Below are positions 1,955 through 26,085 of a stretch of DNA of 26,085 nucleotides, in pieces (the stretch's first letter is position 1; each line of letters begins with the position of its first letter). The translations under genes and the position numbers were made by a program. The DNA is taken from positions 1 to 26,085 of IMG/VR virus record IMGVR_UViG_3300049810_002189, one strand, 5' to 3'. The notes below the pieces were generated by a model, which had not been told where the DNA came from, searched no databases, and saw nothing but the letters and a program-made list of their open reading frames with translations. The stretch comes from a virus.

Positions 1955-2587
1955 ATGTTCGAGAATACACTACACACATTTAATTCACAAGGTACCTGGG
2001 GTACAGCAATAGAGCAAATGCATTGTCCTAATGCAGAAGCATTACACTTATTTGATCAAAGCGGATATGACTTATGTCCACTTGAGCAGGAGTATGCAAA
2101 AGTAAATATGGGCGAAGCAGACTTTGTACGTTATAGAAGATCAATTGCCAAACCATGGTTTGAATCACATACAACTAGTGGTGCTCATATAAATCATTCA
2201 TATTTGTTTGAACGCAAAGGTTATCACGGATATGCCTTAGAACAGTTAGGGCATTGGGCAGAAGGCAATCATCTTATACACAAAATGACTCAACTTAAAC
2301 CTAAGTGGGGTATTGATATCAGTTTAGATTATGTTGATAATAGTAGATATAATACTATGGAATTATTTCATTACGAATGGGATAGCGACAGTATAGATGA
2401 AGTAAAACAAAAGAAATCTGTTATTGAAGAACTACTAACTAATACTGATTGGGACAACTTTGCTAAACAAAAAATTGCTAAAAAATCCGAATGGGCACAC
2501 TTAGATTTTGTTGGACAAAGCGAATGGACTACTAAATACTTAGGCTTACCAAAAGAGAGATTTAAGTTAGTACCATGGAATATATAA
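1955..2587 (+). CDS. Conserved-looking phage protein of unknown function
   Basis: A 210-residue protein whose ATG directly follows the TAG of the upstream gene, which implies translational coupling. I recognise no catalytic family. It is rich in Trp, His and Tyr, with short charged stretches around HYEWDSDSIDEV in the second half, and has no membrane segment or signal peptide. It resembles in style a hypothetical protein seen in marine T4-like phages, but I cannot name it. The following gene starts 13 bases before its stop, so the three plus-strand genes probably form one transcript. Confidence 0.7.
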   Translation: MFENTLHTFNSQGTWGTAIEQMHCPNAEALHLFDQSGYDLCPLEQEYAKVNMGEADFVRYRRSIAKPWFESHTTSGAHINHSYLFERKGYHGYALEQLGHWAEGNHLIHKMTQLKPKWGIDISLDYVDNSRYNTMELFHYEWDSDSIDEVKQKKSVIEELLTNTDWDNFAKQKIAKKSEWAHLDFVGQSEWTTKYLGLPKERFKLVPWNI

Positions 2588-3117
2588 ACAAATTATCACT
2601 TCAGATAGATAAAAAGCAACTACTACAAGATGTTGAGTATATACTTGGCCTAACGCCACTATGGCCTAACCAACAAATCAGTTTAACTAGTATTACAGGC
2701 AACGATGATTGGGACTGTAGCATTGGTAAAATAGCAGATTTACAGCATAAGGAAAGCGACTTTACTGTAGTTAATAACAGCATAAAAGACCGTTATATAG
2801 GCGAATTAATACAAAGTTTAGCACCTAATTACTGTAGATGGCGTATAATGAATAAAGCAAGACGTACTTGTTATAGTGTTCATCATGACGGTACAGAACA
2901 CGTCTTACGCCTACACATACCTGTTATAACAAACAATCAAAACTTTTTAATGTTCTATACGGACAAGCCAGTAGCAAGTGACACAGGCACTGATATTTCA
3001 ATAAAACATTATAATTTGGAACCTGGTAATGCGTACTTGATGCGTACGAATTATTTACATTCTGCAGTAAATTTCAGCAATGAGGATAGAATACATCTCG
3101 TAGCAACTCAATGTTAA
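2575..3117 (+). CDS. Aspartyl/asparaginyl beta-hydroxylase-like (2OG-Fe(II)) protein
   Basis: A 180-residue protein. The C-terminal half carries a double-stranded beta-helix pattern of the Asp/Asn beta-hydroxylase family: HHDG gives an H-x-D pair (H103, D105). The partner histidine is H162 in NYLHSAVN, and R172 in EDRIHLVA could bind 2-oxoglutarate. These positions match the Fe(II) triad and arginine of the family. The substrate is unknown; in phages it could hydroxylate a virion or host protein. It overlaps the preceding gene by 13 bases and ends tail-to-tail with the glutaredoxin gene, sharing TTAA at 3114-3117. Family call is fairly sure, function is not. Confidence 0.7.
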   Translation: MEYINKLSLQIDKKQLLQDVEYILGLTPLWPNQQISLTSITGNDDWDCSIGKIADLQHKESDFTVVNNSIKDRYIGELIQSLAPNYCRWRIMNKARRTCYSVHHDGTEHVLRLHIPVITNNQNFLMFYTDKPVASDTGTDISIKHYNLEPGNAYLMRTNYLHSAVNFSNEDRIHLVATQC

Positions 3118-6445: not shown

Positions 6446-6775
6446 CTAATCTATCAGGACTACCTTGATTGCTTCAGCAGTAGTATATGGTGATTTATGT
6501 GCCATTGGCTCTTGTTGATCTACAATATTTGCATCTCTATATTTTTCTGCGCCTTTTTCATTGATTTCGATAAATGGTATTTCTTCTTGTGGCAATTCGT
6601 CGTCACTCCAGATTGCCTCTACAGGGCACTCTGGTTCACATAAGGCACAGTCAATGCATTCATCAGGGTCAATGTAAAGCATGTCAGGGCCTTCATAAAA
6701 ACAATCTACTGGACATACTTTTACACAGGCTGTATCTTTACAACCAACACAGGGACTTCCGACTACAAATGTCAT
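6446..6775 (-). CDS. fdxA: 7Fe (3Fe-4S/4Fe-4S) ferredoxin, FdxA type
   Basis: A 109-residue protein closely following the Azotobacter ferredoxin I pattern. The cysteines are C9, C12, C17, C21 and C25, then C40, C43, C46 and C50, with the [10 protein letters not shown] and [15 protein letters not shown] stretches. Both the 3Fe-4S and 4Fe-4S cluster ligands appear complete. It is a cytoplasmic one-electron carrier. Cyanophages usually carry plant-type 2Fe-2S ferredoxin (petF), so this type points to a different redox partner and perhaps a heterotrophic host. It is last in the late operon and its ATG overlaps the preceding stop by four bases (ATGA). It could supply electrons to Fe-dependent or radical SAM enzymes in this window; that link is inference. 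Confidence 0.93.
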
Positions 6776-7452
6776 ATTATAAATTCTTTTGGTTCTTGTA
6801 AATGCAATGCACTAGGTGTTACGCATCCTGTAATTGTTAGTGCATATCTAGGCCATAAACCTGCATTACCAGTAGCATGATATATACCTTCAGGCCAACA
6901 ATGTATGTCTCCCATTTTATATTGGTGTATAACATCATTGCCTACACTAACATAATGCCCCCATTGCCAGTCATTAAGTTGTACTAAGTAACGTATTACT
7001 TCTGTATCATCACTAACTTTAGCATGGTTACGTCTGTAGTTATTGTAACTATCTCTGTGCCACGGAATGAATTTTCCTGGAGGTTGTTCTAGAAACATTA
7101 TTTGGGGATTCCATAAACCACTTCTTTCTGCCATTAAATGCATTACATGGTGTAAATTATTTCTAGTCTGCCTACCGCCTGTATTATGTGTATTATATCC
7201 GGCTCTAGTTAAGTCATTATGGTATCCTTCCATAATTTCTTTTGCTTCTTCGTTATAAGGTTGGCCTTTTATACTTACTTCATCATAAGCATCTTCATCG
7301 CGTAAGGCGTTCTTAGACGCATTTACACCTTCTCTAAGCAACGATTCTGGGTTAGATACAAATGTACCTACAAACTGTACATCGGACTCTTTAGATGCAG
7401 GATCGTAATGCCAATCAAAATTTTCTTTATTCCATTCCCAATAACTATCCAT
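6772..7452 (-). CDS. 2OG-Fe(II) / Asp-Asn hydroxylase-like protein
   Basis: A 226-residue protein from the ATG at 7452. This start is chosen because AGGAG lies five bases upstream and it begins one base after the previous stop; a longer reading up to 7530 would lie almost wholly inside the neighbour. Fe(II) ligands are H132 and D134 in PWHRDSY and H192 in IYHATGN, with R202 ([10 protein letters not shown]) as the likely 2-oxoglutarate anchor. The HRD form is typical of Asp/Asn beta-hydroxylases. It follows a second oxygenase-like gene in the same operon, so the pair may act on the same or related substrates. Substrate unknown. Confidence 0.75.
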
Positions 7453-7453
7453 G

Positions 7454-8032
7454 CTACTCCTGTGTACTAAAAAAGAATGTTTGGAACAATCTACCTGAAT
7501 ATTTATCTGTTCCAAAACCAGGTAATACACTTCTGTGGTATAAAGTGCCTTTATAACATACTAATCGATTATAAACATTTCCTACAAATGCTATCTGTTC
7601 CCATTGGTCTAAATTCTCATCTCCTAAGAAGTCTAAGTTGTTAAAATCTGATGCAGAATCTTTAACACCGTCCCATTCATAAATACCCGTTGGTTTATGT
7701 CTATATATTCCTGTACCTGATTCTGCAGGTGCATCCGGTGTTAAGTATAATACTGCCGCCCATGTAGTTTCGTCATGGTGTATCCATGTTTTAGATTCTT
7801 CTGTAGTAATTTGATAAGCGGTGTTGTATTCTTCTGGCCAGTATGTTATAGGTTTTTTAATTATACTATCTTCAAAAAATGTTTTTAAATAATTATGTTG
7901 TTGTAGTTCTTCTGGACCTGTTCTAAATCCAGGATAATTGCCTTCTGTTATAAATTCTCTACTCAGGGCAAATTCTCGTACTTCGTCTGGATTATTATAA
8001 AAGTTATCTATTATAAAAAAGTTTAAATCCAT
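7454..8032 (-). CDS. 2OG-Fe(II) oxygenase-like protein
   Basis: A 192-residue protein. The ATG at 8032 is preferred over a longer reading from 8071 because AAGGAA lies about six bases upstream and the extension sits inside the upstream gene. The N-terminus IIDNFYNNPDEVREFAL resembles a family of uncharacterised phage/bacterial oxygenase-like proteins (DUF6445-like, from memory). The Fe(II) triad is H85/D87 in WIHHDE and H166 in LYHRSV, with R181 before LFQTFFF as a likely 2-oxoglutarate ligand. It overlaps the GH6 gene by 10 bases and is followed by another oxygenase-like gene. The substrate is unknown. An ATAAATA at 7500-7506 inside its 3' end may be an extra promoter for the next gene. Confidence 0.7.
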   Translation of the reverse strand: MDLNFFIIDNFYNNPDEVREFALSREFITEGNYPGFRTGPEELQQHNYLKTFFEDSIIKKPITYWPEEYNTAYQITTEESKTWIHHDETTWAAVLYLTPDAPAESGTGIYRHKPTGIYEWDGVKDSASDFNNLDFLGDENLDQWEQIAFVGNVYNRLVCYKGTLYHRSVLPGFGTDKYSGRLFQTFFFSTQE

Positions 8033-8868
8033 TTTGTATTCCTTACTAGTTCTTCGGCCATTTCGCCCCACATTCTTCCTGCTCTTGGGCCACCGTTTGC
8101 TTTACCGTCGCTTTCACCTGGTATCTTAATCCACAAAAAGGCATCGCATTTTTCTAATCCTGTATTGCATGTAGGTTGTTCACCTAATGCTCTACCTGGT
8201 GGATTACACCAATCGTTGCCATGTGGACCATTGCCGTTACGACTAGTATCTATAACATAATAATCTTGTGGTCTAAGTTCGCATATTTTGTTTGCCCACT
8301 TTGCCGACTCTATTGTTGTTCTATAGTTACTTACATTAACACTAAACCCTCTTACTTTAGTATTGGTAACTTTATTTAAAAATTGATTTACTTCTTCTGG
8401 ACTTAACCAATTGCTATGCCCTACATCTATATACACAATAGCATTAGTTTGTGTTAAAATTTCTAATGCCTGTTTGATTAATTTTATTCTACTGTTTGCT
8501 TCTCCTTTTTCTAAATGAGTTAAATGAGGTATAGCATCAGGTTCAAAAATTACAATTGGCTTGTTTTTGCCTATGCCATTAGCAAAATCTTGTATAAATT
8601 CTAAGTACTCGTCATGTGTTTGAGCACCACCTTTGCTGTATTGACCTATATCCCTATTAGGCATATTATACACTACTAGCACAGGCATTTTGTCGCTACT
8701 GCGTTTGAATAATCTGCGTAAACTTTTATCTAATCCTTTTATAGGTTTAGCACTACGATTACCGTACCATAGACTTAATGGGTGTTTAAAAATTTCTTTT
8801 GAAAGCGGATACTTGTCTTGGTAATCTTTAACTCGATTCCAATCAAAAACCCAAAAAGGATAATTCAT
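8023..8868 (-). CDS. Glycoside hydrolase family 6 (cellulase-like) enzyme
   Basis: A 281-residue protein matching GH6 endoglucanases/cellobiohydrolases along its length. It has PLSLWYG (31-36), VVYNMPNRD (65-73), IVIFEPDAIPHL (105-116), VYIDVGHSNWL (145-155), GFSVNVSNY (174-182), VIDTSRNGNGPHG (205-217), WCNPPGRALG (220-229), CNTGLEKCDAFLWIKIPGESDG (234-255). Compared with Trichoderma Cel6A, D73, D111 (general acid) and D254 (proposed base) are all kept. GH6 enzymes invert the anomeric carbon and cut beta-1,4-glucan. There is no signal peptide and no carbohydrate-binding domain, so it would act in the cytoplasm, in the virion or after lysis. It lies between a methyltransferase gene and two oxygenase genes in a late operon, with a two-base gap upstream. 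True substrate unknown. Confidence 0.93.
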   Translation of the reverse strand: MNYPFWVFDWNRVKDYQDKYPLSKEIFKHPLSLWYGNRSAKPIKGLDKSLRRLFKRSSDKMPVLVVYNMPNRDIGQYSKGGAQTHDEYLEFIQDFANGIGKNKPIVIFEPDAIPHLTHLEKGEANSRIKLIKQALEILTQTNAIVYIDVGHSNWLSPEEVNQFLNKVTNTKVRGFSVNVSNYRTTIESAKWANKICELRPQDYYVIDTSRNGNGPHGNDWCNPPGRALGEQPTCNTGLEKCDAFLWIKIPGESDGKANGGPRAGRMWGEMAEELVRNTKWI

Positions 8869-8870
8869 TA

Positions 8871-9440
8871 TTATACGGTCCTATAAGGTTTATAATACCA
8901 AACACTATCATCCAGTGTCCATACAGCCAATTTATTATTCACAGCAAATTCAGTAATTGCTTTTGTACATGAAGAATAACCATAATCGTGACCTGCTAAA
9001 ATACCGTTTGGTTTTAAATACTTATAATATTTAATCAGTTCTCCTCTAACATTATTATAAGTATGGTCTCCATCTAAAAATATAAAATCAAACTTTACGT
9101 CAAACTCTGCATTCAAAGAGTGGTCGTTATACATATATACATTTTTTAGATGGCTAGTGTGCCCTCTCCATGAGTCCTTATCGGACTCTATTCTTTCGTT
9201 TATTCTTTGCCTTTTGCATCCTTGTAAGTAACTGTCATGTACTTCATTTGCCCAAATATCGACACAATATAAGTTACATGTAGGATTTGCTTCTTTTATT
9301 GTACATGTAGTGCTACCAAGAAAACACCCTATTTCTAATATGTTACTATTTTCAGGTGTAGTAGATACTATGTTAAAAATTGACTCTAAGTCAGATGTTG
9401 ACATTAAACTAGGAATGTCGTATATGTATTTAGGAATCAT
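8871..9440 (-). CDS. Class I SAM-dependent methyltransferase (Methyltransf_24 type)
   Basis: A 189-residue protein. SAM motif I is ILEIGCFLGSTT (34-45), strand 2 ends at LYCVDIW (57-63), and FDFIFLDGDHTYNNVRGEL (117-135) is the typical metal/substrate region of this family. It is followed by YLKPNGILAGHDYG (141-154), as in cephalosporin-hydroxylase/O-methyltransferase-like enzymes and capsule- or glycan-linked methylases. A sugar or small hydroxylated molecule is a reasonable substrate guess. The ATG overlaps the stop of the peptide deformylase gene by four bases and the GH6 gene starts two bases after its stop, so all three are co-translated. Confidence 0.85.
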   Translation of the reverse strand: MIPKYIYDIPSLMSTSDLESIFNIVSTTPENSNILEIGCFLGSTTCTIKEANPTCNLYCVDIWANEVHDSYLQGCKRQRINERIESDKDSWRGHTSHLKNVYMYNDHSLNAEFDVKFDFIFLDGDHTYNNVRGELIKYYKYLKPNGILAGHDYGYSSCTKAITEFAVNNKLAVWTLDDSVWYYKPYRTV

Positions 9441-9991
9441 ACACGATTAACTGATCTTTTCATCTTAGAATACTTTTTAATCAGTTTATCTCTTTTCTTT
9501 AATGCTCGTTGTAATTTGAAATCGCTTACATAAGTAAGATTTAGTATGCCATGCAGATGATCTGTTTCGTGCTGAAAGCAACGAGAATCCATGCCAAAAA
9601 GTTCCATGCTTTGCTCTTCACCTTTTCTATTTTGAAAAGTTACTTGTACGCCTTCTGGTCTAGTTATATGGAAAAACAATCCTGGGAATGTTAGACAGCC
9701 TTCTTCTAATGTAATAAGTTCTTCTGACACATTTACTATTTTAGGATTGTATACTGCAATATTTCCTTCTGTGCTGTGTCTCATTACAAACATTTTTACT
9801 GGATTGCCCAGTTGCGGTGCGGCCAACCCTATCCCTAATCTTTCATGCATTAGTGTAAACATTTCTTGCTCGACTGTTTGCCACACTATGTCTGTGCTTA
9901 ATGGATCAATTGTGCATTCATTTCTTAATGCTGGGTGTTTTGGATCTACTAGTGTGGTATTCCACTTGTTTGCAAATTCTATCTTAGCCAT
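9437..9991 (-). CDS. def: Peptide deformylase
   Basis: A 184-residue protein with all three deformylase motifs: GIGLAAPQ (53-60), EEGCL (96-100; metal ligand C99) and QHETDH (140-145; ligands H141 and H145, catalytic E142). It removes the N-terminal formyl group from new proteins. Phage deformylases are known from cyanophages, where they are proposed to aid turnover or assembly of particular host or phage proteins. Its length and C-terminal basic tail are like full-size bacterial enzymes. It starts 13 bases inside the end of the GGCT-like gene and overlaps the next gene by ATGA. Confidence 0.95.
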   Translation of the reverse strand: MAKIEFANKWNTTLVDPKHPALRNECTIDPLSTDIVWQTVEQEMFTLMHERLGIGLAAPQLGNPVKMFVMRHSTEGNIAVYNPKIVNVSEELITLEEGCLTFPGLFFHITRPEGVQVTFQNRKGEEQSMELFGMDSRCFQHETDHLHGILNLTYVSDFKLQRALKKRDKLIKKYSKMKRSVNRV

Positions 9992-13841: not shown

Positions 13842-14864
13842 TTAGGCCGTTTTGAGTATCTGGATATCTTTGGGATTATTACAATGTTCATGTGGACAAA
13901 CTACTCCCTCAGGTGTTGGCAATTCGAACTCTGAATCAAATACATTGCCATATGTTTTAGCACCACACCAACTGCTAACAATATTACCACGCATGTCAAT
14001 ATTAAATCCTCTTTCACCGATATGACACATCATGCCTTGGAACTTGTTAAGGCCTTGATCCATAATTTGATCTGCATTGTAGTAATTTGTTTCTTCAGGT
14101 GTTTGATATGTAAATAAAAATCTACTTGGATGTGGCTCTGGTGGTGGCGGAGTATTTGGATCTGGTGGAGGCGGTGGCGGAGAGTCTGGGTTTTCTTTCC
14201 ATGTGGGTAAATTTAATATACGCCAGTCATTGCCGTCATAGTCATAAAATGTATCTTGTTTAGCACCAGGACCTAACAGTTTTTTATACATAGTTTTGAT
14301 TGCAATATTCACACCCCAATAGTCTTGTACTGTACTATGGTTATATACTGTTCTAAGACGCTCTGCTAACAGTTCTAGTCTTGGTAAGTAATCTTTTACA
14401 CCTGCTAGTTGATAACTTGTATATACAGAGTCTTTTATTTCTTCTGCAATTTCTATAAGAGAATCTTCGTCCATGGATTGTGGGTGGTAACTGATTACTA
14501 AATCGTCAATTAAATGTTTTGCTTTGCTCCACCAATTAACTGTTCTGCTACCATTAGTAAAAATTATATTATGTCCGTTGTATTCTCTTACTTTTTCTAA
14601 TATTTCTATAAAGCCTGGTATTACTGTAACTTCACCACCAATAAATTCAAAGTTTACTACTTTATCTTGCTGTTGGTAATGTTGACAAATTTTTTCTATT
14701 ATGTGAACATATTTGTTTGTGTCGTGCCAACCTAAACTGCCATCATGTAATTGTGTAGGACAGTATTCGCATTCAAAGTTACAACTATTGCCCATACTCC
14801 ATTGTATAGTAATATCTTTCGACAGTACTTCTGGTCTAGGTCCATGTACTTTAGTTGGATACAT
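13842..14864 (-). CDS. Radical SAM protein with SPASM-like Cys cluster
   Basis: A 340-residue protein. CNFECEYC (28-35) is the CX3CX2C 4Fe-4S motif that binds SAM, with GGE at 76-78 and IFTNGS at 101-106, both typical of radical SAM barrels. The C-terminal part has C280, C300, C323 and C328 (CHIGERGF, SSWCGAKTYGN, VVCPHEHC), a SPASM/twitch-like auxiliary cluster site. Between them, residues 228-245 are an odd proline-rich run (PPPPPP, then PPPPEP). SPASM proteins often modify peptides; others act on sugars or nucleotides. It overlaps the GNAT gene by 14 bases and has AAGGAA before its ATG. Substrate unknown. Confidence 0.88.
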   Translation of the reverse strand: MYPTKVHGPRPEVLSKDITIQWSMGNSCNFECEYCPTQLHDGSLGWHDTNKYVHIIEKICQHYQQQDKVVNFEFIGGEVTVIPGFIEILEKVREYNGHNIIFTNGSRTVNWWSKAKHLIDDLVISYHPQSMDEDSLIEIAEEIKDSVYTSYQLAGVKDYLPRLELLAERLRTVYNHSTVQDYWGVNIAIKTMYKKLLGPGAKQDTFYDYDGNDWRILNLPTWKENPDSPPPPPPDPNTPPPPEPHPSRFLFTYQTPEETNYYNADQIMDQGLNKFQGMMCHIGERGFNIDMRGNIVSSWCGAKTYGNVFDSEFELPTPEGVVCPHEHCNNPKDIQILKTA

Positions 14865-15327
14865 TTAGTTCCTTGGTTACATATATGTTAGGTCCAAATT
14901 CCATACCTTCATCAAAATAATTACCTATAGTTTCAAAACCAAATTTAGTATATGCCGGTAAGGCACTTTTACGAGGTATGCTCCATATCATATTGCAACC
15001 TTCTTTGATTGCTTGTTTTTCTGTAGCATTAAATAGTAATTGAGCAACACCCTTTTTTCTAACATCAGGATCAACCCAAATTCCTCTGCTTCTATAAATA
15101 TTGTCTTTTGTTCTGTGGCCGCTGTTTACACCAACAATTCTGCCATTTGTAATTACACCAAAAAATGATGGGTCGTAATTAAATATATCCATATCAAATT
15201 CTAGTGGATTACCGTCATAAGGCCAAGTCATTGCACTATGAGTTTCTATTGGACTTACTCTATTTTGCCATAAATGTTTTTGCCATACATGACAAATAGT
15301 TTCAAATGTAATATTGGTTGTTTCCAC
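14851..15327 (-). CDS. GNAT-family N-acetyltransferase
   Basis: A 158-residue protein with the acetyl-CoA site: SRGIWVDPDVRKKGVAQLLF (motif A; the usual R/Q-x-x-G-x-G/A is RKKGVA) and, further on, ALPAYTKFGFETIGNYFDEG (motif B). It would transfer an acetyl group from acetyl-CoA to an amine of unknown origin. The start is GTG at 15327: GTG sits exactly five bases after an ATAAATA late box, the same spacing as seven ATG starts here. It is followed, with a 14-base overlap, by the radical SAM gene. Confidence 0.85.
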   Translation of the reverse strand: METTNITFETICHVWQKHLWQNRVSPIETHSAMTWPYDGNPLEFDMDIFNYDPSFFGVITNGRIVGVNSGHRTKDNIYRSRGIWVDPDVRKKGVAQLLFNATEKQAIKEGCNMIWSIPRKSALPAYTKFGFETIGNYFDEGMEFGPNIYVTKELNVSN

Positions 15328-15332
15328 AGTAG

Positions 15333-15339
15333 TATTTAT
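15333..15339 (-). promoter_or_regulatory. T4-type late promoter box before a GTG start, predicted leaderless
   Basis: ATAAATA on the minus strand is followed by CTACT and GTG at 15327. It lies just after the terminator at 15351-15381, so a transcription unit ends and the next begins within about 50 bases. Confidence 0.7.
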
Positions 15340-15350
15340 TTTGTACAGTC

Positions 15351-15381
15351 AAAAAAATAGGCTGTTCCCAGCCTACTTTTT
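15351..15381 (-). terminator. Rho-independent terminator after the subtilase gene
   Basis: On the minus strand TAGGCTG, loop GGAA (GNRA type), CAGCCTA is followed by seven T. This is the strongest terminator hairpin noticed in the window. It lies 14 bases downstream of the subtilase stop and closes the PAAR/PP-loop/subtilase operon. Confidence 0.85.
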
Positions 15382-15394
15382 AGTAAGTAAAAGT

Positions 15395-17116
15395 TTATTT
15401 TAAACTTTCAAAACCTTGTTTATCATTTCCTAACGAGTATTGTCCTGAACCATAAACAACTTCACTTAGTGTTCCACCGTCGTTAACAAAATATGTTTCA
15501 GAACCTAAGTTTCTTTCATCTTCTGAAACTTCACTGCCACCAAATAAACTTACTGAGAAGTGTCTGTTATATTTGGTATTATCGCTTTTAGTTGCTGTTA
15601 AAATAAAGTTATAAATTGTTGTATTACTCATTCCGCCTGTAACACTTGTATTTGCAGTAATGTTCCAACCTGCTGATGCATTACCACTTAAAGTCAATGC
15701 TGGTGGTAGTGCGGCAAAGTCTGAACTTGCAATATCTGTTACAGTATTAGCAACATTTAAACTAATATCAATGTCGCCTGCTCCTGATAGTAGGAAGTCT
15801 CCTAAGTTACCAGCGGCTGTGTTCCATACTGTTGCATAGTATTCGTTTTCTACAAACACAATATTATTTGGTGTTGAACTATATAATCCTGGATCTTGGA
15901 AAAGCAATCCGGTTAGTGATTGTTCAATAATTAATTCTTTTAGTGCATCTGCAGTTGCTTTACCACTGTCATATCTTTGAGATACCATTGCACCTATTCC
16001 TGCAACTATGGCACATGAAATACTTGTACCGTTACCGTTTGCCTTAAGATCATCTCCTGTAACACCTGTGTAGTTTCCTACTTCGACTCTATTACTAATA
16101 TCTGCATAGTTTACACCAACACCTGGAGCAAATACGTCAACTTCTTCACCACCATTTGTTTGTAGTCCTGAACCTTGTTCAACTACTGTTCCTGCATCAT
16201 TTGAAAATGCTGGTACGTTATCTGAACTGTCACTAGCACCTACTGTTAAAATATCATTGATACCTGCTGGTGAAAAATTATCAACATCTCCACCGTTGTT
16301 ACCTGCCGCGGCAACCATTAAGAAACCTTGTCTATTGTGCATCCATGATACATATCTGTCTAGTACTTGTGATTTTGAAAAACTCCATGCCATACATACT
16401 GTTGAAGCACCACGTCTGTTACCATCACTAGTATCATCTGCAAGTACATCGTGGAAAGCAATCGCTTTGAAGGAATTTAGTACATTTTCTAATTTTATTG
16501 CTCCACTGTCAACTGATGAGTCTGATATTTTTACAATACCTATTGAGGCGCCACCGGCTACACCGTATGTAGCACCATTGATCAAACTAGCCATCGCTGT
16601 TCCATGACCGTGTCTGTCTGTTGTATCGTAATCTGTTGCTACCTTTCCGCCTTCGATAAATTCTGCAAAACTGTTTGGACTTGCTGTTACTGAAAATACA
16701 GGTTCAAAAGATTTGCCTGAAAACTCTGGGTGTCCTGTATCTACACCACTATCCATTAAGTATACTGTACTACCAGCACCTGTGTACACAGGGTCATATG
16801 TTGTTCTTAGTGGTAAGTTTCTTGTTACTAATCTTTGTTTGTGCCATTCGCTAGTGTCTTCACTAATTAGCAATGTGGCATCTGCTTGGTCGGTTACATT
16901 CTCTGATGCAACGTAATTTGCTAAAGACGTAATATCGCCTATGCTTGATTCTTCTATATCAATCTTATACATTCCAACGACAGAATGATCAAAATTTGCA
17001 TCTATTGTAGCACCTGCTCCTGTTAATGCAGATTCTGTAGCACTTTTATTAAAGTTTGCCGAATCTCCGTCTATGTACTGATGTTCGAATGATACTATAT
17101 ATGATTTAACAGCCAT
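15395..17116 (-). CDS. Subtilisin-like serine protease (S8) with phage-type C-terminal domain
   Basis: A 573-residue protein. Residues 1-85 look like an I9-type inhibitor propeptide (SYIVSFEHQYI at the start, VGMYKIDI in the middle). The catalytic domain follows: Asp122 in VYLMDSGVDTGH, His171 in HGHGTAMASL, oxyanion Asn273 in AAAGNNGG and Ser365 in GNGTSISCA. All key residues are present. Residues about 425-530 form a beta-rich Ig-like domain, as found in virion proteins and fibres. There is no secretion signal, so attachment to the particle or cytoplasmic action is likely. AAGGGA precedes the ATG and overlaps the stop of the PP-loop gene. Host or virion protein substrate unknown. Confidence 0.93.
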   Translation of the reverse strand: MAVKSYIVSFEHQYIDGDSANFNKSATESALTGAGATIDANFDHSVVGMYKIDIEESSIGDITSLANYVASENVTDQADATLLISEDTSEWHKQRLVTRNLPLRTTYDPVYTGAGSTVYLMDSGVDTGHPEFSGKSFEPVFSVTASPNSFAEFIEGGKVATDYDTTDRHGHGTAMASLINGATYGVAGGASIGIVKISDSSVDSGAIKLENVLNSFKAIAFHDVLADDTSDGNRRGASTVCMAWSFSKSQVLDRYVSWMHNRQGFLMVAAAGNNGGDVDNFSPAGINDILTVGASDSSDNVPAFSNDAGTVVEQGSGLQTNGGEEVDVFAPGVGVNYADISNRVEVGNYTGVTGDDLKANGNGTSISCAIVAGIGAMVSQRYDSGKATADALKELIIEQSLTGLLFQDPGLYSSTPNNIVFVENEYYATVWNTAAGNLGDFLLSGAGDIDISLNVANTVTDIASSDFAALPPALTLSGNASAGWNITANTSVTGGMSNTTIYNFILTATKSDNTKYNRHFSVSLFGGSEVSEDERNLGSETYFVNDGGTLSEVVYGSGQYSLGNDKQGFESLK

Positions 17117-17120
17117 TTTA

Positions 17121-18212
17121 TTATCCCTTCAAAATATTAATTATTGGTAAATCCTTAAACATGTCCACATTACGTTTAAGTAATGGTTTCCTAAAATGCT
17201 TATCAAACACTTGCAGATAAGGATCGTTACCTATATATTTATCTGCATACCATATTTTCAGTGCCTCGAAACCTGTAAATTTGACAGACTTTTTTCCAAC
17301 ACATTTAAATATATTTTTATAAAGATATTCTTTGATATTGCATTCTTCTTCCTGCCACATTACACTGGTAGTACTATCTTGGAAGGTAGAACCTCTACTT
17401 ACATCTCGGCCATATAGTTTATTTAATTGTGTAAAATACTTTGTTGACAATTTATCTATATACACATGGCTTCTAAAAAAATTAAATATACTGCCGTCAT
17501 TACGCAAGTCTAGTGCGTGTCTATATGTTAAATATTTCGAGTGCAATCTATCTATGAACAAACCATTGTTATTGCCAATATCCATTGATACATTTGGTGC
17601 ACTAGATGTTTCTAAAATAGGCCCATCGATGTCTTCAAATACTTTTAATAAAGGTAAAAATTGCGGTGTAACACAATGATATTTTTGTGCTACTTCTAAA
17701 AATTTACCACTATCAAAAAAATCTATAATATCAAAATCTATTACAATAGTGTCATCAGGTATGTTTTTTATTTCGTAATCGTTAAAGGTTATTCCTTGAG
17801 ATCTATAACGTACACAATAGGGTTTAAACGCAATATGCTTACGTTTAAGCAACTCGTATTGTGTTGTGCTGTCAAGACCACCACTTACAAATATATTTGG
17901 TTTAATTGCTTCTAATTTATCTCTGTATACACTTTCAAATAATTCATCATAGTCTTTGTAATCAAAATCTTTTTCTATCATGGATATTATATACTCATGA
18001 TCAGTGTCATCGACTGCAAAATTATCAATATTTTTAGATGCAATTTTATTTTTTATATTTGATGCCAAACCAAAACCGCGTATGTCCTTTTTATATTCAG
18101 ATAAGCAGTCTATACTGTCTAGTTCAGATGTTTTAATTTTATGATAAGTGCGATTGTCAAACTCGCAACTGTTATTAAATAGTTTATCCAATGTTCGTTT
18201 TACTTGCGCCAC
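17121..18212 (-). CDS. PP-loop ATP pyrophosphatase (asparagine-synthase-like)
   Basis: A 363-residue protein with the PP-loop SGGLDS at 110-115 preceded by NIFV. This loop grips ATP in enzymes that adenylate carboxyl or amide groups, such as asparagine synthetase, QueC, TilS and lasso-peptide cyclases. The spacing from the loop to the later strand (YCVRYRSQGITFNDYEI) fits. There is no glutaminase domain, so ammonia or an amine would have to come from elsewhere. The start is uncertain: GTG at 18212, which overlaps the PAAR gene by 29 bases, or TTG at 18191, overlapping its stop. An ATAAATA at 17236-17242 inside its 3' end may be an extra promoter for the subtilase. Confidence 0.75.
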   Translation of the reverse strand: MAQVKRTLDKLFNNSCEFDNRTYHKIKTSELDSIDCLSEYKKDIRGFGLASNIKNKIASKNIDNFAVDDTDHEYIISMIEKDFDYKDYDELFESVYRDKLEAIKPNIFVSGGLDSTTQYELLKRKHIAFKPYCVRYRSQGITFNDYEIKNIPDDTIVIDFDIIDFFDSGKFLEVAQKYHCVTPQFLPLLKVFEDIDGPILETSSAPNVSMDIGNNNGLFIDRLHSKYLTYRHALDLRNDGSIFNFFRSHVYIDKLSTKYFTQLNKLYGRDVSRGSTFQDSTTSVMWQEEECNIKEYLYKNIFKCVGKKSVKFTGFEALKIWYADKYIGNDPYLQVFDKHFRKPLLKRNVDMFKDLPIINILKG

Positions 18213-18450
18213 CGGCTATACCGTGCATACAAGAGGCTTTATCGATACCTACTCTAGCGGCTGGTAGGCCTTCTATATTTACTTTACTTGAACCAGATGC
18301 TATCTTAGGATTGGAATGAGGTGAGTCGCCATGCCCTGCCACTGTGTCGCCTAATCTTGCTGGAGCAATACCTTCTATGTTGGTTTTTGAAGCACCTGAT
18401 GTGATAGGTCCTCCTGCAATTGATGTTCCTTTTAGTGCGGCTTTTGGCAT
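18184..18450 (-). CDS. PAAR-repeat spike-tip protein (T4 gp5.4-like)
   Basis: An 88-residue protein made of PAAR-type repeats: PARLGDTVAGHG, then ASGSSKVNIEGLPAARVGID, then CMHGIAGGASKTNIG. PAAR proteins form the sharp metal-stabilised tip of contractile tail spikes; the T4 version is gp5.4. The ATG at 18450 is used rather than one at 18468 because the latter overlaps the late promoter box. It is followed directly by the PP-loop gene, and the transcript continues to the subtilase. Confidence 0.88.
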   Translation of the reverse strand: MPKAALKGTSIAGGPITSGASKTNIEGIAPARLGDTVAGHGDSPHSNPKIASGSSKVNIEGLPAARVGIDKASCMHGIAGGASKTNIG

Positions 18451-18458
18451 AGTAATAT

Positions 18459-18465
18459 TATTTAT
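18459..18465 (-). promoter_or_regulatory. Late promoter box for the PAAR operon
   Basis: ATAAATA on the minus strand lies eight bases from the PAAR ATG (ATATTACT between). It is back-to-back with the plus-strand box at 18470-18476, so two late promoters diverge within about 18 bases. Confidence 0.6.
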
Positions 18466-18469
18466 CATA

Positions 18470-18476
18470 ATAAATA
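18470..18476 (+). promoter_or_regulatory. T4-type late promoter box on plus strand, predicted leaderless
   Basis: ATAAATA is followed by GTAGT and the ATG at 18482. It is the only predicted leaderless late promoter noted on the plus strand in this window. Confidence 0.7.
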
Positions 18477-18481
18477 GTAGT

Positions 18482-19063
18482 ATGAAACTAGATTGGACCC
18501 ATAATCAAGCAGAAGGTTTTATCTACTGCGAAATAGATAATATTACATACAAATCATATAATGGCGGCGATAATATCCTTAAAATTATTGACGGTAATGA
18601 AGTTAGTAACATGGGGAAATATGATCATGACGACCCATGGGAAGTTGAAAAACAATGGATTAGTGATAATTATTCAGACAGATTTGGCATATATGAACCT
18701 TTTATGGCCGGTCCACAACTAATGGAACAATGGCATAATGACCATCCAGAATATACCGAGGCGTTTCCTGCCTATGGTTTATTAGAAGGTAGATATTTAG
18801 ACCGCTTACAGAGAGATTCTCATGTGCAAGTGGGCAAGGATATGATTACTGTATTATATGATCCTGCTGAAAAACTTCACATTGAGTGGGACAAGCATGG
18901 TACTGATAAATTCTATCGTAGAGAATGGTGTGAAGAAAATAATAGTTTCTACAATGTTCAACCTTGTTGTGTTTTTCCTAATAATCCTGGAAGGACTGAA
19001 TTAAGCGACGAGGTAAAGACTTCTATGATTGAAGAAAATAAATTAGACTTGTCTATTATTTAA
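18482..19063 (+). CDS. Unknown phage protein, 193 residues
   Basis: Starting at the ATG five bases after a late box (MKLDWTHNQAEGF), the protein is rich in Asp, Glu, Trp and Tyr and has no membrane segment or signal. Landmarks include the Cys pair QPCCVFP near the C-terminus and the His/Trp-rich HIEWDKHGT. A longer reading from 18344 is rejected because it would cross the PAAR gene and both promoters. No family recognised. It ends tail-to-tail with the next gene, sharing TTAA at 19060-19063. Confidence 0.75.
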   Translation: MKLDWTHNQAEGFIYCEIDNITYKSYNGGDNILKIIDGNEVSNMGKYDHDDPWEVEKQWISDNYSDRFGIYEPFMAGPQLMEQWHNDHPEYTEAFPAYGLLEGRYLDRLQRDSHVQVGKDMITVLYDPAEKLHIEWDKHGTDKFYRREWCEENNSFYNVQPCCVFPNNPGRTELSDEVKTSMIEENKLDLSII

Positions 19064-19356
19064 GCCTTTGCTAAACTAATACCTGTCGTACCTTCAAGAT
19101 ACTGATCAGCAAGATCCTTTAGTGTATCCATAGTGCAAAATACTTTTTCATTTGAAATAGTAATTTCTTTAGAAGCATCAGCACTAAACAACCACGGCAT
19201 TAATCCTAATCCTTGTTGAGTAATTTGTACTGCCATAGGCTTTTCTATTGTGATACCATTTTCATCTTGACTGATAAAACGTGTAATGATTTCTGTATCG
19301 CTGGTTAATTTGATTGTGACAACGTCACCTTTTGTATGAGATTTATTTACTAACAT
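19060..19356 (-). CDS. Small phage protein with Sm-like beta-barrel pattern
   Basis: A 98-residue protein. GDVVTIKLTSDTEIITRFIS, then ENGITIEKPMAVQI resemble the strand pattern of Sm/Lsm-like barrels, and similar proteins occur in marine T4-like phages with no known function. No catalytic residues are visible. A ribosome binding site (AGAGGAA) and a TATAAATA box 19 bases before the ATG show a leadered late mRNA. RNA binding is only a guess. Confidence 0.7.
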   Translation of the reverse strand: MLVNKSHTKGDVVTIKLTSDTEIITRFISQDENGITIEKPMAVQITQQGLGLMPWLFSADASKEITISNEKVFCTMDTLKDLADQYLEGTTGISLAKA

Positions 19357-24949: not shown

Positions 24950-26085
24950 CTATTTATCTTTTTTGTTTACTTTGTGGAGATGCCATCTTCTTTGTCTTCC
25001 ATATAATACGAATTCTGTGTGACTTATAATATCATCACCGTACTCACGGTAGTACTGATCATCAATAGTGTATGATTGTTTTTTGTAAATTAAGTCATCT
25101 TCGTTATTAAAAGTGTAGTCATATAAATTAGTCAACGTGTCCATACTGCCCTGTTCTTTATAATAATTGCCCCAGTATTTTACTCTGTGTTTAGATATAT
25201 GATTATAATCTTCAATAATTGTTTTGTCTACATTCCATTTTTTTGAAACGTACTCACTTATTTTATCTATAAAATATGGAACTTTTTTATTATAATGAAG
25301 TTGCATAGGGATAATATATGGTATTGCCCAACTGTAAATTTTTATTGCATCTTCTCCAACAGTTGTATCAAAAATTCCTGTATCGTGCCATTTATATAAA
25401 CTATCTTCTAATTGTTTTGACCATTCTTTAAAATCATCTTCTAGGTATTCTATAGCACCTTCATAAAATTCTCTATACGTCACACCATGTGATTTGTACA
25501 AGTATATAGAAATCAAATCGCTTATCCCAGAATTGTGTAGAGCAAGTACTTGGCTAGAATACTTGTAAGATTTTATTAAATCATCTTGCGACATTGTAGA
25601 ATTAGACTTTATTACCTGAATTTCTTCTGACAGTCCTAATTCAACATCTTCAAAATTAGTGACATCTACCAGCATGTCGTATGCAGAAAATGTTTTTAAA
25701 TCAAATTGTTGTCTCTGCATATTCATAGGTGCATTTTCTATTACTTGCAACGAAAAAATATCTAAAGATGAGTGAAAACCTTTCTCGTATAATATGCTCA
25801 TTGTATCTTTCCAAGAGTCGTATGTTTCGCCTGGTAATCCAATTATTAATTCTGTGCCCATTGGTAAATGTCTTTTATTAGCATAGGTCGTTAGCCTTGC
25901 TATTTCGTCTAATTTCATATTTTTTCTTTCAACATTTTCCAATGCTTGTTGTGTGAATGTCTGTAAACTGATTAGAAATTGAGCATTGACTCCGCCCTCG
26001 TTTAATAATTTTATTATTTCTAGTACGTCAGCATTACTGTTTTTAGCATAACTACATTGAAACTTTCTAATAACGCTGTGCTTCT
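24950..26085 (-). CDS. Radical SAM enzyme, C-terminal part (5' end outside window)
   Basis: The frame is open to the window edge, so the start is missing; the TTG at 25942 is not a real start. The visible 378 residues begin KHSVIRKFQCSYAKNSNA. They include FLISLQTFTQQALENVERKN and GTELIIGLPGETYDSWKDTM, the distal barrel strands of B12-binding/Elp3-type radical SAM proteins (SLQS, then ELI-x-GLPGET). The CX3CX2C and any B12 domain would be upstream. The remaining half is helical and Tyr-rich. The reaction is unknown; such enzymes methylate or rearrange carbons on sugars, lipids, peptides or tRNA. Its stop overlaps the late promoter of the fibre gene. Confidence 0.8.
   Translation of the reverse strand, partial: KHSVIRKFQCSYAKNSNADVLEIIKLLNEGGVNAQFLISLQTFTQQALENVERKNMKLDEIARLTTYANKRHLPMGTELIIGLPGETYDSWKDTMSILYEKGFHSSLDIFSLQVIENAPMNMQRQQFDLKTFSAYDMLVDVTNFEDVELGLSEEIQVIKSNSTMSQDDLIKSYKYSSQVLALHNSGISDLISIYLYKSHGVTYREFYEGAIEYLEDDFKEWSKQLEDSLYKWHDTGIFDTTVGEDAIKIYSWAIPYIIPMQLHYNKKVPYFIDKISEYVSKKWNVDKTIIEDYNHISKHRVKYWGNYYKEQGSMDTLTNLYDYTFNNEDDLIYKKQSYTIDDQYYREYGDDIISHTEFVLYGRQRRWHLHKVNKKDK
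24951..24957 (-). promoter_or_regulatory. T4-type late promoter box, predicted leaderless
   Basis: ATAAATA on the minus strand is followed by GTTGT and the ATG at 24945. It overlaps the TAG stop (24950-24952) of the upstream radical SAM gene. Confidence 0.75.

Follow-up and report, generated by a model that had tools for sequence, protein, structure and literature searches.

Why should a phage keep the gene for the tip of its tail spike in one operon with genes for a PP-loop enzyme and a subtilisin-like protease? The question is raised by the IMG/VR virus record IMGVR_UViG_3300049810_002189, of which positions 1 to 26,085 were analysed; this whole stretch of 26,085 nucleotides is called the window here. 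An earlier note had described the three genes as a closed operon under one late promoter, possibly encoding a spike-linked proteolytic factor. The window can be placed in a lineage of T4-like myoviruses from the genes of a 130-kb type A relative (G001; the types are described below), which encodes a tail sheath, a terminase, a DNA helicase and a DnaB-like replicative helicase. The sheath gene supports a contractile tail.

The features of the locus are collected in Table 1. The genes, called PAAR, PPL and SUB below, are packed as the earlier note had it, with an overlap of 8 nt between PAAR and PPL and a gap of 4 nt between PPL and SUB. The start of PPL is the conserved TTG at 18191, and not the GTG at 18212, because in one relative (L007) a stop precedes that point. 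The hairpin behind SUB has a folding energy of -16.8 kcal/mol (z -4.66) and is nearly letter-identical in 10 relatives, and the late promoter of the next gene then follows. As a late promoter is found only before PAAR, and the conserved terminator is followed by another late promoter, the operon is closed. The description of a PAAR spike protein, a PP-loop protein and a subtilase in one such operon is thus borne out, both by these signals and by the profile matches given below. On the other side of the operon, the G001 homologue of the divergent gene has the same promoter at -13.

Table 1 Features of the PAAR-PPL-SUB locus and its neighbours in the window
Feature	Position	Strand	Basis
Trio region: PAAR, PPL (N-type PP-loop protein) and SUB (subtilase)	15395-18450	-	
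T4-type late promoter of the PAAR-PPL-SUB operon, GATAAATA	18459-18466	-	Sequence
PAAR, 88 aa, predicted sharpened tip of contractile-tail spike	18184-18450	-	PF05488
PPL, N-type PP-loop ATP pyrophosphatase-like, 356 aa, TTG start	17121-18191	-	Motifs, profile matches of relatives, model
SUB, proteinase-K-like subtilase, 573 aa	15395-17116	-	PF00082
Intrinsic terminator with GGAA loop, closing the trio operon	about 15352-15381	-	Folding energy and conservation
Next operon's late promoter, AATAAATA, 13 nt upstream of the acetyltransferase GTG	15333-15340	-	Sequence; kept in relatives
GNAT acetyltransferase, at the head of the next operon	14851-15327	-	PF00583, E 1.3e-12; synteny
RSAM, radical SAM enzyme with SPASM/twitch-type auxiliary cysteines	13842-14864	-	PF04055, over cut-off
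phrog_527 small protein, upstream of PAAR	19060-19356	-	Homology
Divergent gene facing away from the PAAR operon	18482-19063	+	Own late promoter at 18469-18476

PAAR matches its Pfam profile with 64 bits (cut-off 27, E 1.5e-17). Four residues of the zinc-ligand type (H40, H45, C74 and H76) are invariant in 9 close relatives, and the His/His/Cys/His set is at least 93% conserved among 74 sequences from phages that carry the PPL-SUB module. There is one PAAR gene each in 9 of 10 records, and the gene is single-copy in the checked records that have it. In being a single domain with these ligands, present once per record in myoviruses, it is like the PAAR tips of contractile tails and type VI secretion systems; it differs in that the gene lies beside nrdAB and a set of enzymes, not beside a spike gene. 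PAAR proteins of jumbo myoviruses have also been described as standalone (PMC7824862). The T4-like phage Cr30 has a PAAR gene of 42% identity, which shares an overlap with the end of its hub/tail-lysozyme gene. Our own search found no gp5 near PAAR and is uninformative, as Gp5_OB was matched in no genome.

In type VI secretion, PAAR tips carry effectors. The locus described here resembles such systems in that an enzyme gene is linked to a PAAR gene. The differences are that the carrier is a phage, that the partners are a subtilase and a PP-loop enzyme, that no immunity gene was seen, and that PAAR has no fusion or extension and swaps independently of SUB and PPL, as shown below, so that this is not a matched effector-PAAR arrangement of the type VI kind. 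Three contigs do encode PAAR fused to a peptidase M15 domain (L077 7932-8897, L078 3264-4148 and L163 2244-3212), the first of them without the module and the other two too short to tell. These fusions are a nearby precedent for enzyme cargo on a PAAR tip.

SUB matches the subtilase profile with 101.6 bits. Its triad (D122, H171 and S365) and oxyanion residue (N273) are invariant in 26 aligned homologues, which confirms the protease with complete triad that had been read from the sequence. The nearest solved relatives are proteinase K and aqualysin (MEROPS family S8), with which it has the catalytic core in common and possibly a prodomain: the N-terminus co-aligns weakly with pro-proteinase K (23.9 bits), suggesting a prodomain of the I9 type. 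It differs from them in being a phage late gene product with no match to the Pfam I9 model and with a C-terminal domain of cadherin/Ig-like fold (model pLDDT 83, Foldseek probability 1.00). This domain had been called virion-type Ig-like. The β-sandwich is upheld by the model, but 'virion-type' is unproven, because the domain recurs in no other protein of the same records. The N-terminus, MAVKSYIVSFEH, has no obvious hydrophobic signal as judged from sequence. Phages of Bacillus, Agrobacterium and Acinetobacter, too, have S8 proteases, annotated as subtilases; these are only 25-30% identical to SUB over part of its length, and come from a collection of cultured phages that is without any PPL relative.

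PPL is the least familiar of the three proteins. Its own sequence matches no Pfam or NCBIfam model, and no solved structure was found for it by sequence. It carries an SGGLDS motif; its relatives L127/L150 match Asn_synthase (PF00733, 24.7 bits) and QueC (PF06508, 24.0 bits), each above the curated cut-off; and its predicted model (pTM 0.81) weakly matches PP-loop enzymes (MnmA, Foldseek probability 0.82). On the basis of motif, profile matches and predicted fold, it is assigned to the N-type PP-loop superfamily. The SGG-DS, SPQ-type PQ and GFE motifs are invariant in 26 homologues. It thus has the SGGxDS PP-loop and predicted fold in common with the C-domain of asparagine synthetase, QueC, MnmA and NAD synthetase, but has a C-terminal half of its own, with the GFE motif, and belongs to no close family. 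Nor does it have the glutaminase domain or conserved catalytic cysteine of such enzymes: no glutaminase domain was matched by Pfam in the window PPL or the relatives scanned, the PP-loop begins within about 50-70 residues of the N-terminus in the type B relatives introduced below, and the alignment of 26 homologues contains no invariant cysteine of the MnmA/TtuA catalytic type or any other. These two absences point to adenylation with formation of an amide or isopeptide bond rather than to thiolation.

Two further proteins accompany the trio. The RSAM gene lies in the next operon of the window, and in many type B cassettes its homologue directly follows PAAR. Among 40 homologues, the CxxxCxxC motif is 100% and the C-terminal cysteines are 97% conserved, the pattern of SPASM/twitch enzymes. 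The usual substrates of SPASM-type enzymes are peptides or proteins. The best named match of RSAM is to the viperin family, and at 48.7 bits it is far below the cut-off of 180, so RSAM is not called a viperin. The second protein, X, is a radical-SAM-like protein without the cysteines, with no CxxxCxxC and a match to W_rSAM_matur in one relative (3.9e-5 in L118). A distant match to X in G001, at 116120, has CxxxCxxC; it is of the true radical SAM type and is not X.

Some other genes of the window may be recorded here. Positions 8023-8868 (-) encode a glycosyl hydrolase of family 6 (cellulase-type; PF01341, 184 bits) and 9437-9991 (-) a phage peptide deformylase. Aspartyl/asparaginyl beta-hydroxylase-like proteins, another protein-modifying class, are encoded at 2575-3117 (+) and 6772-7530 (-), the second being a weak match. 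Of the radical SAM profile PF04055, the product of 24950-26083 (-) matches the C-terminal half alone, with a score under the cut-off; in G001 a likely homologue of this product (L166 10074-11294) has a weak match to phrog_14154, a family of virion structural proteins.

Relatives were collected by scans of uncultured viral contigs anchored on PPL, PAAR, SUB and NrdB, which yielded 72 distinct trio loci, all 72 with a phrog_527 homologue. Three arrangements were found (arrowheads give the strand). In type A, the clade of the window, the order is PAAR>PPL>SUB> and then GNAT>RSAM>, so that RSAM is outside the operon; these loci have no X. The larger clade, type B, has PAAR> (RSAM>) <X <SUB PPL>, with SUB and X adjacent on one strand. 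A third and rarer arrangement has SUB>PAAR> together and X on the other side. The linkage of the trio thus survives strand inversion and reordering.

The gene content is all-or-none. Among 107 loci with PAAR and NrdB and at least 6.5 kb beyond PAAR, a sample that includes overlapping fetches of the same contigs, SUB and PPL are both present in 103, both absent in 4, and found singly in none. Anchoring on PPL, with no selection for the other genes, gave SUB at 79 of 79 loci and PAAR at 76, the other 3 being cut by the contig end. In whole records too, PPL and SUB occur together or not at all, save for a distant and different S8 protein in the 343-kb G005, and the large records without the module lack PPL wholly and also lack this SUB. 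Free separation of the genes, which the earlier note had named as evidence against a unit, is therefore not what is seen; co-occurrence extends well beyond the clade of the window, and what does not hold is a fixed order. Neither PPL nor X was found in the cultured phage records searched, and no paper on the gene set was found in the literature searched. We conclude that the cassette is real, conserved and, as far as our searches show, undescribed; its linkage is observed directly, and its mechanism is what we infer below.

The late promoters give an indication of timing. The motif occurs in 4.7% of random 90-nt windows. NATAAATA stands before PAAR at all 17 type A loci and at 52 of 58 type B loci (69 of 75 overall), in nearly all cases 13-16 nt from the start. 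At none of the 17 type A loci is there a late motif before PPL or SUB. In type B, SUB has one at 58 of 58 loci, about 40-70 nt (mostly 50-70 nt) upstream, and PPL at 4 of 58, the background level. PAAR and SUB therefore have promoters of the late-gene class, and PPL comes under one only in arrangement A. As PPL has no late promoter above background outside the window clade, the set is not simply co-regulated. A distant promoter of its own for the subtilase had been named as a point against the unit: in arrangement B SUB does have its own, but it is close by and of the same late class.

In G001 (L164-L170), by far the commonest distance from NATAAATA to the start codon is exactly 13 nt (15 of the 32 ORFs linked to a promoter, with 23 genes listed), and the window promoters at 15333-15340 and 18469-18476 are also of this type. 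Were transcription to begin at the T4 position, many late mRNAs of these phages, including that of PAAR in most relatives, would be leaderless.

The three proteins diverge fast. In the type A relatives, with near-identical contigs and L099, which is more distant, set aside, identities are about 89-99% for nrdA and nrdB, against 27-67% for PPL, 54-81% for SUB (full-length matches) and 54-91% for PAAR. Values of dN/dS relative to the window are about 0.16-0.40 for PAAR, PPL and SUB, and about 0.02-0.05 for nrdA, nrdB and RSAM. Two contigs, L005 and L007, hardly differ over the region from nrdA to SUB, apart from PAAR and one short stretch of SUB, and diverge again in GNAT. The replacement of PAAR is gene-precise (L005 5748-6008 against L007 5745-6008), and at synonymous sites the PAAR of L005 does not differ from its counterpart in the distant L012. 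The swap suggests that PAAR is a variable part and that PPL and SUB tolerate different PAAR alleles. Because PAAR has been swapped between phages with nearly identical PPL and SUB, a strict partnership of PAAR with either is weakened; of the proposed spike-linked protease operon, the co-transcribed unit and the co-occurrence stand. In a mirror-tree comparison of 70 loci, PAAR, SUB and PPL distances correlate at 0.75-0.82 with each other and at 0.18-0.32 with NrdB, but within type B the correlations among the three are no higher than those with phrog_527 or nrdB. The overall correlation reflects the A/B split, and is not used here as evidence of co-evolution.

On the basis of these observations, we hypothesise, with a probability of somewhat under 0.4, that the cassette is a late module for the tail tip or for entry, in which SUB is a protease of the virion or the entry stage and some phage protein is modified by PPL and the SPASM-type radical SAM enzyme. 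PAAR would cap the tail spike. SUB, an intact subtilase whose synthesis coincides with that of the virion proteins, would most likely ride on or near the tail tip, or mature a tail-tip protein, acting on a protein at the host envelope or during assembly of the tip. PPL would adenylate a carboxylate, most likely forming an amide or isopeptide bond, and together with the SPASM-type enzyme (and X in most relatives) it would modify a phage protein on which the same step depends. The virion location of SUB, the substrates, and the service of all these activities to one pathway are the inferred parts of this scheme. A spike-linked protease is plausible in that PAAR and SUB are both late, PAAR is single-copy in the records checked, and relatives without the module can have the PAAR-M15 fusion. 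Taken together, the late timing, the link with the spike tip, the fast evolution and the M15 precedent make an entry-stage or tip-maturation protease the best reading.

A doubtful but substantial alternative is a RiPP-like maturation cassette, in which RSAM, X and the PP-loop ligase modify a phage protein and SUB trims it without ever leaving the producing cell, PAAR adjoining SUB since the modified protein belongs to the tail tip. Pairs of a radical SAM/SPASM enzyme and a subtilase (QhpD/QhpE) and AsnB-like ligases are classic peptide-maturation classes. In the cassette, the SPASM-type cysteines are conserved, SUB and X are neighbours in type B, and one SUB homologue (L079) matches QhpE (5.7e-8) and PatA (1.9e-9). 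These matches to RiPP protease models are weak, however, both being below the cut-offs, and SUB is much larger than the subtilases of QhpD/QhpE and other radical SAM and subtilase systems, which share with the cassette a SPASM-type enzyme near a subtilase. Nor is there obvious room for the precursor-peptide gene of such systems: the genes abut or overlap, and among ORFs of 70 aa or more none is to spare. X is absent from type A, where RSAM is outside the operon. As for the substrate, there is no PAAR residue that all module-bearing phages keep and other phages lack. This leaves PAAR unsupported as the target of modification, and the search for a modification site specific to these phages gave no candidate.

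It is unlikely, on our reading, that the enzymes serve late host take-over or lysis, with SUB acting in the cytosol on host proteins, PPL making or removing a metabolite or countering a defence, and PAAR an unrelated late neighbour. The lack of an obvious signal peptide in SUB, the elevated divergence, which fits an arms race, and the exchange of PAAR without SUB or PPL would all suit this proposal. Against it, SUB and PPL remain all-or-none beside PAAR through the rearrangements and in the PPL-anchored sample, and SUB is under a late promoter at every type B locus.

That three functionally independent genes have simply not yet been separated, synteny decaying slowly, is improbable. The region on the nrdAB side is also fairly conserved, and within type B the distances of the trio track those of its neighbours equally well; yet three arrangements with strand flips have produced no locus that lost just SUB or just PPL, and the large records without the module have neither PPL nor this SUB. 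Finally, it is highly improbable that SUB is the capsid-maturation (prohead) protease, for which its late promoter and the finding of no S77/S78 protease in G001 might speak, since the G001 record is incomplete and G011, at 250 kb the largest record with the module, has a clear gp21-type S77 protease in addition to SUB, which is thus not needed in that role.

The late tail-tip or entry module can also be put in a stronger form, which we consider rather unlikely: in T4-like phages, PP-loop ligase, SPASM radical SAM enzyme with X, and subtilase would form an obligate kit for the chemical remodelling of the tail tip, or of a protein carried on it as cargo. If this were true, there would be phage particles with a post-translationally modified, protease-armed spike. 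The cassette is common in uncultured T4-like phages, with no homologue of PPL or X in the cultured-phage collection searched, and a PAAR-protease-PP-loop cassette would make enzyme delivery by phage tail tips, or their chemical modification, testable.
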